Origin: a virus | IMG/VR virus record: IMGVR_UViG_3300037189_023550 | Location: 1 to 21,589 of that record | Length of the DNA stretch: 21,589 nt | Direction: 5' to 3' (one strand) | Shown here: piece by piece, positions 15,804 to 21,589 of the stretch | Numbering within the stretch: the first letter of the stretch is position 1 | Layout: the number at the start of each line of letters is the position of its first letter | Notes under the pieces: model-generated | The model's database searches: none | What the model saw: only the letters and a program-made list of their open reading frames with translations | What the model was told of the DNA's origin: nothing | Translations under genes and position numbers: made by a program

Positions 15804-16265
15804 ATGAAAAATTGGTTATATCAAAATAAAGAGGTAAATTCCCTAGAGGATTTACCTCAAGATGCTTTTGGTTTTATATATGTAACTACTCATATACCAA
15901 GTGGGAAAGCATATATTGGAAAAAAATCTTTATATCATAATATAAAGAAAAAACTCACTAAAAAAGAATTAGCTGAACAAACCGGACCTGGTCGTAAACC
16001 TACTACTAAAGTAGTTCAAAAAGAAAGCGATTGGAAAACATATTTTGGTTCTGCTAAACCTGTACTAGAAATCATCAAGGAAGACAAACAAGACGAATTT
16101 AAACGTGAAATTCTTAAAGTAGTTAATAATAAAAAATTATTGACTTATTACGAATGTAAGTATCTTTTTATGATGGGTGTTTTAGAATATCCCGAATCTT
16201 ATTTTAACGACAATATTTTAGGAAAATTTTTCGCACGTGACTTTGGAGTAGCAAAAGAGAATTAG
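15804..16265 (+). CDS. GIY-YIG-type nuclease-like protein
   Basis: 153 residues. The GIY and YIG strands are seen as GFIYVTTHIPSGKAYIGKKS (about residues 23-42). A basic insertion with KKKLTKKELAEQTGPGRKP follows. SDWKTYFGSAKPV (about 75-87) and the helix YYECKYLFMMGV (about 114-125) provide the later Tyr/Ser and the putative metal-binding Glu of the fold. The family includes T4 Seg homing endonucleases, but many phages carry such single-domain proteins as resident genes. No intron or split gene is evident here. It starts five bases after the fibre gene's stop and precedes the primase by 12 bases. Role: DNA cleavage or processing during replication or recombination, or exclusion of competing phage; the sequence does not decide. 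Confidence 0.72.
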   Translation: MKNWLYQNKEVNSLEDLPQDAFGFIYVTTHIPSGKAYIGKKSLYHNIKKKLTKKELAEQTGPGRKPTTKVVQKESDWKTYFGSAKPVLEIIKEDKQDEFKREILKVVNNKKLLTYYECKYLFMMGVLEYPESYFNDNILGKFFARDFGVAKEN

Positions 16266-18156: not shown

Positions 18157-18522
18157 ATGAAATTATTAGACTTACTTAAAGAAGTAGAAGAAAAAAAAGA
18201 TAAAAAATCCATTAAAGAAGAGGATAGTCCAACTGTAGTAGATGAAATTGGTAAATTTTTCGTAGTTAAAAAACCTGGTAAAGGTATGACTAAAGAAGGA
18301 ATGGTTTGCGAAGCTACTGTATTTGACGAAATCAAAATGGAGGAAACTAAAGGTGTTTATAAAAACCGCTCTGAGGCTAATCGTCATGCTAATGAAGCTT
18401 TCATGGAATATGAATCGCAGCTTAAAGAAATGGAAGAGGCAATGGAAGCTTTCCGTGGTGCTAAAAAAGATATTGAAGAAAAGAAAGCAGCTGCAAAAGA
18501 AAAAATCCAAAAGCTTAAATAA
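18157..18522 (+). CDS. Coiled-coil protein with capsid-targeting-like N-terminus (possible prohead/internal protein)
   Basis: 121 residues, very rich in Lys and Glu. It begins MKLLDLLKEVEEK, a short amphipathic leader with an L7-K8-E9 triplet. The centre (FFVVKKPGKG, then a single Cys in GMVCEATVFDE) may be a small beta unit. From about residue 66 to the end it is a continuous charged helix (SEANRHANEAFMEYESQLKE, then KKDIEEKKAAAKEKIQKL) expected to form a coiled coil. By composition and coiled coil it resembles prohead core or internal proteins of T4-like phages, but I do not recognise a named family. The polyprotein starts two bases after its stop, so the two are co-translated. The start lacks a Shine-Dalgarno sequence (TATATAATT before ATG). 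Confidence 0.7.
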   Translation: MKLLDLLKEVEEKKDKKSIKEEDSPTVVDEIGKFFVVKKPGKGMTKEGMVCEATVFDEIKMEETKGVYKNRSEANRHANEAFMEYESQLKEMEEAMEAFRGAKKDIEEKKAAAKEKIQKLK

Positions 18523-18524
18523 TA

Positions 18525-21500
18525 ATGGATTTGCTTACCAAATTCTTATTGGAGGATCTTTTAGAAGAAGATAATCGAGACTATATTATTTATTTTGATG
18601 TAGATGATACTTTATCAAACTACACTCAAAATTTAGCAACTACGTTTATTAAGGATCCTGAAACTGGTGAAGATAGAAAAATCAAACCTCAAGATACAGT
18701 TGAAAATCTAGATTATTGGCTTAATGCCCCTATCATTCCAGGAGCTAAAGAAATGGTTGATTTTGCTAAAAATAATTTCAATAAAGTTGAAATACTTTCT
18801 GCTGTTCCTGAATTATCTAAAGCAAATAAAGAATTAACTGGTAGAAGATTTTTTGATGCTCCCATTGATGGTAAAACAGAATGGGTTACAAAAAATATAG
18901 GTTCATTACCAATGAATTGGTCCAAAAATGGTAAAGAAAAAGCATTATGGGCTACACCAAATTCCGTATTAATTGATGATAAACCCGAAAACATTAGAGC
19001 TTTTGAACAAGCAGGTGGGATTGGGATTTTAATAGATACTCCTCAAAATGTTATTATTAAACTTAAGGATCTATTAGAAGGAAAAGAAACCATCAATGAA
19101 GGTCGTTATGATTCATTAACAAGAATGATTGTTAAAGATATAATTAATGATTGGAAAAGTCAATATGATGGTACTCCTGAACTTTTAGAATATAATGAGG
19201 ATTATGAATCCGAAAATTCTAAAGGTCAATCTATTAACTTTGAACTTTATGCTACTTTAAATGTTAAAGAAACAAAAACAGAAGTTTATAGAGTAGATGG
19301 AGGAGCAGATCCATTAAGAACCCCAGCATATTTAGAAATTAAATTCCAAGTAGATCCTAGAGATTTACCTCAAAAATGGGAAACCATATATAATGATCTA
19401 ATAGATGTTGTTAGACATGAAATTGAACATTTAACTCAAGCCGGGTCTAATGTAATTTCGTCTAAAGAAATGGAAGATGATGAAATTTTACGAAATTTAA
19501 TTGCTTTAAAAGTTTTACCTAAATCAGAATACTTTAAATTAGAAAAAGAGGTAGATGCTATGCTTCAAGGTATGTACTTGAAAGCTAAAAAATCAAAAAC
19601 ACCTTTTAAAGATGTAATTAATGATTATTTTGATAAAGTAAGATTAAATAAAAAAGATAGAAATAATATTTTAGATTTATGGAAACAAAGAGCTAAAGCT
19701 TTATCTTTACCTTTACAAGAAAATTTAATAAACACAGATTATAAAGAAAAAATACAAGATCTAACAAAATACATGTTAGATAAAGGTATGAATATTCGTC
19801 CTTTGCCTAAAGTAAAATTTATACATGATGATAGTAAGAATGCTGAAGACTTTTTTGGTAAAACAGCATATTATAATCCTAATGATAAATTAATTGTACT
19901 TTACACTTATGGTCGTCATCCAAAAGATATTGTACGTTCATTTTCTCATGAAATGATCCATCATATACAAAATCTTGAAGGTAGAATAGGTAATGGTGAT
20001 ATTAATACTACTAATACAAATGAAGACGATTATTTAGAAACTATAGAAAAAGAAGCCTATCTAAATGGTAATATTGAATTTAGAAAATGGTCAGATAGTA
20101 AAACTAAATTAGACGAAGGGATTTTAGATAAAACTAAAAACCTAATTTCCACTTTCAAATCAGCTTATAAAGATCAAACAGGTGATTTTAAAGGATTTAA
20201 AGAATTATTTACCAAATATATTAAAAAACAAGAATTAACTCCTGAAGAAAAAGAAAAGTTACATCGTAATGTTGTAGACATATTCAAAATGAGCGCTATT
20301 CCCATTTTAGGAATTTCAGGAACTACATTATTAGGTACACTAACTAATTTTTTAAGTAAAGGTAAATTTTCAACATATCCTTCTAAATTTAAAGATAAAT
20401 TCTTCCCAATAAATGAAGTAGGTGAAGCTAATCTTGAACCTTATAAGTGGACAGAAGTTGATAGTAGTGGTCGAGTTACTTCTATAGAATTTACCACACC
20501 TTCCGAAACCAAATATGAGGTAGATTTAACACATATCGAAATTGACGATCCTGAAGATGAGGATATGTCTATGGAAGCTATGGATATTGAATTTTTAGCA
20601 AAACCTAAAGGTGCTGAGGGTTCATCTTCAAAAATAGTAGTCAATAAAGGAGAACTATATAGAGTAATGTCTACAATAACGAATATTATTAAACATTATT
20701 TAAGACAGTATAGAGGAGATATTAAAGCAATTTTATACTCCCCTTCTAAAAAATCAAGCGAAGAAGATTTTAGTAACCAAAGAGATAATTTATATAAAGC
20801 ATTTATATTAAAAGTATTTCCTGATGCTAAAATTAAACAACAAGGCGAGAATATAATAACCTACTTCCCAGGTAATGCTATAGTAGCAGAATTGAATATA
20901 CATCAAAAAGCATTATCCCAAACAGAAAAAGATGCATTAAAAATAACATATAAAAATTGGGATAAATTTGGAGGAAAAGAATGTAATAATGGTTTCTGTG
21001 ATATTTTTGCTAAAAATTTAAGTAAATATTTACCTGGCTCTAAAATAATGAGTACAGAAGATTCTAGAAATAATACATTAGGACATGTTTGGGTTGAATA
21101 TGAAGGTAAATATTTTGATGCTGAAACACCTAACGGAGTAGACTCATGGAAACAATTACCATGGATGATAGAATTTTATTCTAAAACCAAATCATACCCT
21201 ACAGACATAGAAAACCTAAACGAACTAATAATCCCAGAAAATGATCCTAAAAAAGGAACAGGTAAAAAACCTAAAGGATCAGGTCGTAGATTATACACAG
21301 ATGAAGATCCATCAGATACAGTTAGAGTTAAATTTAAAACCAAAGAAGATATCGTTGATACTTTAAATAAAAAATCATTTAAATCTAAAGCACACGCTCG
21401 TCAATCTCAAGTAATTAACTTAATTCACCAACGAGTAAGAGCAGCTTATGGTAAAGCAAAAGATCCTGAAGTGAAATCAAGATTAAAACGTGCTTTAGAT

Positions 21501-21589
21501 TATATTGAAAAACGTAAAGAAATGTCTAAAAAGAAGACACAACGTTTAAATAAAATGAAAGAAGCATCTGACCCACAAGCAGGTACAGC
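18525..21589 (+). CDS. Multi-enzyme polyprotein (HAD, two HExxH modules, LETM1-like, Cys/His/Asp module), 3' truncated
   Basis: I translated this frame by hand: it is open from ATG 18525 to the window end, giving 1021 residues with no stop. Modules in order: N-terminal leader MDLLTKFLLED (1-11); NT5C-type HAD phosphatase (about 20-185); HExxH module 1 (about 193-396, H298-E-I-E-H302); HExxH module 2 (about 400-528, H475-E-M-I-H479); LETM1-like segment with a hydrophobic stretch at 589-610; an unrecognised phage module (about 632-800); a peptidase-like module with C820/C825, H854 and D865; and a Lys/Arg-rich tail from about 905. (L/I)-x-E triplets lie in linkers, ending at E185, E192, E399, E531, E631 and E900. 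This suggests cleavage by a gp21-type prohead protease into separate proteins packaged in the head. It starts two bases after the coiled-coil gene. The frame is certain; the processing and packaging model is inference. Confidence 0.85.
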   Translation, partial: MDLLTKFLLEDLLEEDNRDYIIYFDVDDTLSNYTQNLATTFIKDPETGEDRKIKPQDTVENLDYWLNAPIIPGAKEMVDFAKNNFNKVEILSAVPELSKANKELTGRRFFDAPIDGKTEWVTKNIGSLPMNWSKNGKEKALWATPNSVLIDDKPENIRAFEQAGGIGILIDTPQNVIIKLKDLLEGKETINEGRYDSLTRMIVKDIINDWKSQYDGTPELLEYNEDYESENSKGQSINFELYATLNVKETKTEVYRVDGGADPLRTPAYLEIKFQVDPRDLPQKWETIYNDLIDVVRHEIEHLTQAGSNVISSKEMEDDEILRNLIALKVLPKSEYFKLEKEVDAMLQGMYLKAKKSKTPFKDVINDYFDKVRLNKKDRNNILDLWKQRAKALSLPLQENLINTDYKEKIQDLTKYMLDKGMNIRPLPKVKFIHDDSKNAEDFFGKTAYYNPNDKLIVLYTYGRHPKDIVRSFSHEMIHHIQNLEGRIGNGDINTTNTNEDDYLETIEKEAYLNGNIEFRKWSDSKTKLDEGILDKTKNLISTFKSAYKDQTGDFKGFKELFTKYIKKQELTPEEKEKLHRNVVDIFKMSAIPILGISGTTLLGTLTNFLSKGKFSTYPSKFKDKFFPINEVGEANLEPYKWTEVDSSGRVTSIEFTTPSETKYEVDLTHIEIDDPEDEDMSMEAMDIEFLAKPKGAEGSSSKIVVNKGELYRVMSTITNIIKHYLRQYRGDIKAILYSPSKKSSEEDFSNQRDNLYKAFILKVFPDAKIKQQGENIITYFPGNAIVAELNIHQKALSQTEKDALKITYKNWDKFGGKECNNGFCDIFAKNLSKYLPGSKIMSTEDSRNNTLGHVWVEYEGKYFDAETPNGVDSWKQLPWMIEFYSKTKSYPTDIENLNELIIPENDPKKGTGKKPKGSGRRLYTDEDPSDTVRVKFKTKEDIVDTLNKKSFKSKAHARQSQVINLIHQRVRAAYGKAKDPEVKSRLKRALDYIEKRKEMSKKKTQRLNKMKEASDPQAGT
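18582..19079 (+). other. Polyprotein module: NT5C-type HAD phosphatase
   Basis: Residues about 20-185. HAD motif I is D25-V-D27-D-T-L; motif II is the Ser in E-I-L-S92; K117-T-E-W-V and K139 supply the motif III lysine region; motif IV is L-I-D151-D152. The order and the PIIPGA stretch near 68-73 fit 5'(3')-deoxyribonucleotidases, which release phosphate from nucleotides. All catalytic residues appear present, so it is probably active. Confidence 0.75.
19101..19712 (+). other. Polyprotein module: HExxH metallopeptidase-like domain 1
   Basis: Residues about 193-396. The module opens with GRYDSLTRMIVKDIINDWK, directly after an I-N-E triplet. H298-E299-I-E-H302 gives the zinc motif. About 40 residues later EKEVDAMLQGMYLKAKK (E340/E342) may supply the third ligand. 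The substrate is unknown. Confidence 0.65.
19722..20108 (+). other. Polyprotein module: HExxH metallopeptidase-like domain 2
   Basis: Residues about 400-528. H475-E476-M-I-H479-H provides the zinc motif, and IEKEAYLNGNIEFRKW (E508/E510) the probable third Glu ligand. The upstream strand KLIVLYTYGRHPKDIVRSF is typical of small SprT/IrrE-like metalloprotease folds. It is clearly different in sequence from module 1, so this is not a simple duplication. Confidence 0.68.
20157..20390 (+). other. Polyprotein module: LETM1-like segment with a membrane-like stretch
   Basis: Residues about 545-622. LTPEEKEKLHRNVVDIFKMS leads into a 22-residue hydrophobic stretch (589-610) with P593, G596, G599 and G604, then a K/F-rich end (SKGKFSTYPSKF). 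The pattern follows LETM1-like segments known from bacterial and phage proteins; a membrane or pore role is possible. Confidence 0.5.
20940..21164 (+). other. Polyprotein module: Cys/His/Asp peptidase- or transglutaminase-like domain
   Basis: Residues about 806-880. C820-N-N-G-F-C825-D-I-F-A begins a helix; G853-H854-V-W-V-E-Y and F864-D865-A-E follow as strands. The order Cys (helix start), His (strand), Asp (strand) is that of NlpC/P60, papain-like and transglutaminase-like enzymes. C825 is the better nucleophile candidate. The family is not pinned down. Confidence 0.55.

Follow-up and report, generated by a model that had tools for sequence, protein, structure and literature searches.

A modular polyprotein of a T4-like phage carries prohead-protease-like sites at its module joints and is a probable capsid cargo

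Why would a T4-like phage encode one long chain of unrelated modules with a glutamate-ending triplet at each joint? The DNA analysed here (the window), an IMG/VR fragment of 21.6 kb (21,589 nucleotides), comes from a T4-like phage; it carries baseplate-type genes, a SegE-like GIY-YIG gene, a primase and an exonuclease, and it stops inside such a polyprotein gene. The open reading frame in the window (18525-21587) comprises 1021 amino acids; the complete polyprotein, read at L002:10001-13663 on a 79-kb contig (L002/G001) that is near-identical to the window and encodes an identical polyprotein, comprises 1220 amino acids, and its part past the window's end contains more [LIVM]-x-E triplets at later joints. 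The gene lies near head/baseplate genes. PHROG 447, matched at 15804-16265, and the gene at the matching place in Flavobacterium phage immuto are both labelled “NAD synthetase”, a label that looks wrong for what is a GIY-YIG SegE-like endonuclease (Pfam E=6e-28).

The modules of the window protein and the joints between them are listed in Table 1. Two HExxH motifs are seen in modules B and C; Pfam and Foldseek matches bearing on their zincin-like identity were below significance, and module C matched IrrE/PprI and selecase weakly in the PDB, with none of the matches significant. Foldseek searches of the AF2 models, which were poor (mean pLDDT 48 and 59), gave no significant match in the PDB. 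An ART domain as in T4 Alt, an ADP-ribosyltransferase head protein, found no match in Pfam or PHROGs.

Table 1. Features of the polyprotein gene and its surroundings (window coordinates; arrows mark predicted cuts)
Feature	Position	Strand	Remarks
Small gene just upstream	18157..18522	+	N-terminus similar, MKLLDLLKEVEE
Modular polyprotein gene, open-ended	18525..21587	+	residues 1-1021 of 1220
Capsid-targeting-like peptide	18525..18569	+	MDLLTKFLLEDLLEE; LLE10, LLE14, LEE15
Module A, HAD / 5'-deoxynucleotidase-like	18570..19082	+	PHROG 2643 E=3e-21
A-B joint	19071..19100	+	LLE185↓G and INE192↓G; breakpoint peak at residue 186
Module B, GRYDSL...HEIEH	19101..19706	+	zincin-like HExxH, residues 298-302
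B-C joint	19713..19721	+	LQE399↓N; breakpoint peak at residue 399
Module C, HExxH metallopeptidase-like	19734..20111	+	HEMIH, residues 475-479
C-D joint	20109..20117	+	LDE531↓G
Module D, putative LETM1-like	20118..20405	+	label of the first-pass annotation
D-E joint	20409..20417	+	INE631↓V
Module E, no assigned identity	20427..20888	+	
E-F joint	20883..20891	+	VAE789↓L, V at P3; L003 joins here without module F
Module F, Cys / YunG-like	20907..21203	+	weak Pfam PF24591, below cut-off
F-G joint	21216..21239	+	LNE900↓L and IPE905↓N
Module G, basic	21243..21584	+	DPKKGTGKKPKGSGRRLYTDE

T4 gp21 cuts after L/I-x-E, and Asp at P1 blocks processing (PMC9026906). The first-pass annotation had placed such triplets in the linkers between modules, and all those it named (ending at E185, E192, E399, E531, E631 and E900) are found at their residues, with Gly after E185, E192 and E531; the in-module chance triplet that it gave as a caution, LLE222↓Y, is likewise present. 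To these we add LLE10↓D, LLE14↓E and LEE15↓D at the N-terminus and IPE905↓N, and the one joint left unmarked there carries V-x-E (VAE789↓L). Its warning that the case rests on placement was sound: the window protein holds 11 triplets against 13.6±3.2 in shuffled sequences, and a count in a single protein that is not above chance was discarded as evidence. In the poor AF2 models the joints fall in low-pLDDT stretches (below 50 at residues 186-193, the A-B joint) and LLE222 falls in a predicted strand, which weakly suggests that the joints are disordered linkers.

The homologue set comprised 80 related IMG/VR loci plus the isolated phage immuto, and its collection relied partly on the pattern HEMIHHIQ; a scan for relatives of residues 532-905 returned 6 loci, all on contigs already in the set. 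Across 103 ORFs in 82 loci, modules A-I occur in varied orders, as duplicates or as stand-alone genes, and in immuto they are distributed over several genes. The N-terminal modules of relatives include GGGFKPPTKGH NMNAT-like and MSGVAGG polymerase-beta-like types. Throughout these rearrangements the linker (L/I)-x-E is kept: nine unrelated modules carry it at their own N-end regardless of the module that precedes them, and they keep it as stand-alone genes too, e.g. MSNLNE↓ADPKK (module G) and MGNLADLLLE↓ES. Recurrent sites are LRE↓EETEY before module A, LNE↓GRYDS before B, LNE↓NASYS before C, LEE↓GRKKKKDPKK or LNE↓ADPKK before G, and LNE↓AIVGDKIECDNCGW before H. Some joints have V or M instead of L/I at P3, and most joints lacking L/I there still retain the P1 Glu; P2 is free to vary, and P1 Glu with an aliphatic P3 is retained across unrelated modules. 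The stand-alone module I of Methylophilales phage Melnitz has no site. Two loci that are 98% identical, L002 and L003, differ in that module F is missing from L003; the junction there reads IVSE↓ADPKK and its L002 counterpart IVAE↓L...module F...IPE↓NDPKK, so that gain or loss of a module falls at the Glu joint.

Immuto gp88 (L082:6285-9008; NC_055915 107131-109854), annotated NadR, is a five-part chain in the order MSGVAGG polymerase-beta-like, NMNAT-like GGFKPPH, unknown, HExxH module C and HExxH module B; its joints include LPE↓GAEQ and MAE↓GRYD. The polyprotein at L034:8138-11476 begins with a zeta-toxin/kinase-like module (PF06414 E=5e-14) and also contains module C. Sinorhizobium phage phiM12 gp159 (L139:2040-3848, 602 aa), a long T4-superfamily protein of unassigned function, has a C-terminal module I preceded by LME↓R.

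Breakpoints between homologues were taken from BLAST borders alone, with the motif not used, and were compared with 500 rotations. (L/I)-x-E lies within 8 residues of 207 of 331 breakpoint clusters against 64.2±7.3 by rotation, a count that none of the rotations reached, where HSP borders and homologues, like the breakpoints of related proteins, are not mutually independent. With a small or polar P1' the excess is 169 vs 37 expected; [LI]xD is depleted (38 vs 71), and the controls xK, xN, xQ, [KRNQ]xE and [DE]xE stay at about chance level. Two controls for which no role was expected also exceed the null, E-x-[LI] with z 5.4 and [LI]-x-x-E with z 4.3; [LI]xE is thus not alone in being enriched at breakpoints, although its excess is by far the largest.

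The phage's own gp21-like protease, named in the first-pass annotation, exists: the contig of the window's phage (G001) encodes an S77 protease (E=5e-31), its gene lying outside the window. A gp23-type (T4-type) major capsid protein is present on 12 of 20 long contigs, and the identical 12 carry S77 protease above the Pfam cut-off. Those capsid-protein N-termini that could be read contain LLE↓S, LLE↓G and ILE↓N, and the S77 proteases begin MKKILIE↓T; in T4, too, gp21 carries such a triplet, LIE-9, close to its N-terminus (PMC9026906). The gp23 match of the G001 capsid protein (G001:C1:20313-22079, 588 aa) comes in two pieces, as it does in G003 and G006, which suggests that the capsid proteins of these phages contain an insertion. 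Within the head/core region of immuto, flanked by the capsid gene and the SegE-like gene, [LI]xE occurs at residues 6-30 in 22 of 30 genes vs 48 of 183 elsewhere (p=1e-6), with the control [LI]-x-x-E also enriched in immuto N-termini (p=0.0016). Sites with a small or polar P1' are in excess (94 vs 54) in those head/core proteins whose N-terminus bears [LI]xE and which lack HExxH, a pattern that fits scaffold being cut to pieces; genes for both counts were called with a simple ORF caller. A natural control, phages that lack a T4 head of the S77 type (those of the Viktualia and Psa21 YunG-like proteins), is too small to count.

These observations, from placement in homologues to the S77 protease, support in silico that the linkers bear prohead-protease-like sites. 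We consider it probable that the ORF encodes a T4-like capsid-cargo polyprotein that is cut between its modules by the prohead protease and delivered with the DNA. The peptide MDLLTKFLLE↓D would target the polyprotein to the prohead core. As the head matures, the T4 gp21-family (S77) protease encoded by the phage would cleave the joints after Glu, recognizing (L/I, sometimes V/M)-x-E where each module starts. The products—HAD nucleotidase-like, two HExxH metallopeptidase-like, Cys/YunG-like, basic, zinc-ribbon and other small proteins—would remain in the head until they pass into the host along with the DNA. Cleavage, head packaging and ejection we infer from the T4 rule, and the functions of the modules are likewise putative.

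The chain is like the T4 gp21 (S77) substrates IPI-III, Alt, gp22 and gp23 in its L/I-x-E sites with Asp disfavoured at P1, and possibly in its short N-terminal targeting-like peptide, which is present in the window protein but absent in part of the homologues; in T4, 10-residue capsid-targeting peptides suffice (PMC9026906). It is also like T4 in that an S77 protease and a gp23 capsid protein occur within one genome. T4 substrates carry terminal propeptides or are chopped scaffold (PMC9026906), whereas here a single chain has many modules that are predicted to be folded, a site per joint and few sites inside. The head ejection proteins of phiKZ and SPN3US are similar in that a gp21-related protease recognizes a three-residue motif and cuts after Glu (PMC10052503), but the SPN3US motif is A-x-E, unlike L/I-x-E here; 13 of 14 mapped SPN3US sites remove N-terminal propeptides and one is a C-terminal autocleavage, and no string of cut modules is reported for either phage in PMC10052503. 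Our search of the open literature did not turn up a description of the present arrangement.

Iyer et al. (2017) described polyvalent proteins of phages and plasmids, with predicted co-delivery with DNA (PMC5512222; main text without “NadR”, “nicotinamide” or “Flavobacter”). Our chain resembles them in having many unrelated enzymatic modules, shuffled between relatives, and in its zincin-like HExxH modules, assigned here by motif. No domain is commoner in polyvalent proteins than the zincin, and zincins or a C-terminal assemblin-like domain have been proposed to process the chain to which they belong (PMC5512222), whereas the joints here match a separate prohead protease. The main rival explanation, ranked below release by the prohead protease, is that the two HExxH modules process their own polyvalent protein and that the joints are the zincins' own sites. 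We regard this as unlikely: the same triplet stands at N-termini that have no HExxH (stand-alone HADs, the capsid protein, the S77 protease), the 94 vs 54 enrichment is in head/core-region proteins free of HExxH, and the motif fits the known gp21 rule, including the depletion of Asp at P1.

Slightly less probable still is that the joints, being ends of flexible or helical linkers, serve folding or act as recombination joints for the shuffling of modules, with no proteolysis involved, as would agree with the coincidence of the sites with recombination-like breakpoints and low-pLDDT stretches. A linker role does not, however, predict depletion of the triplet within modules, and depletion is what is found: module interiors contain 226 [LI]xE vs 411 expected (0.55), and the ratio is 0.64-0.65 at three redundancy-removal levels (32 vs 49, 42 vs 65, 96 vs 148), none of 300 shuffles being as low at any level, whereas other proteins of the same phages show no depletion (1.07). 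The triplet is thus enriched at joints and rare within modules across homologues, as the first-pass annotation would have it. Moreover, the 258 joint nine-mers include 107 different ones and joints hardly differ from other positions in codon use, which argues against a DNA recombination joint and indicates that selection acts mainly on the protein; a variable P2 beside a retained P1 Glu and aliphatic P3 in unrelated modules also speaks against a mere linker.

We give the same low probability to the idea that the triplets are leftover capsid-targeting N-termini of fused genes, of which the first alone is still cut. Stand-alone modules do begin with the triplet, as in the two module starts quoted above, but internal joints retain L/I-x-E and not the targeting-like peptide before it, and decay would not preserve the P1 Glu that these joints keep. 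At the starts of the polyproteins themselves, [LI]xE appears by residue 20 in 44 of 64 non-redundant sequences, and the control [LI]xK is almost equally frequent there (42/64), so that the count at N-termini has little weight by itself. The other 20 have no [LI]xE in residues 1-20, which counts against the capsid-cargo reading, as do the joints with V/M at P3 and the Melnitz module; two of them still begin MD(E/Q)LTKFLV, and the remaining starts are mostly MGKVIAAYGGG-like or MSGVAGG-like. Chance was considered as well and ranks below release by the prohead protease.

Release of head-delivered cargo by the prohead protease thus remains our preferred reading, and we think it reasonably likely, with somewhat less assurance than for the window protein itself, that a combinatorial, protease-released cargo chain, whose modules move between phages as units with their own site, is carried by T4-like phages that form a widespread group. 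If so, inserting one module into the chain would amount to the gain of a new head-delivered protein, and the capsid-targeting peptides of T4 and the injected polyvalent proteins would become parts of a single system, legible from sequence. Each joint would predict a mature N-terminus and thereby an exact list of head-delivered proteins, which would make the processing of polyvalent proteins directly testable and would allow head-delivered proteins of uncultured phages to be found by a sequence rule.
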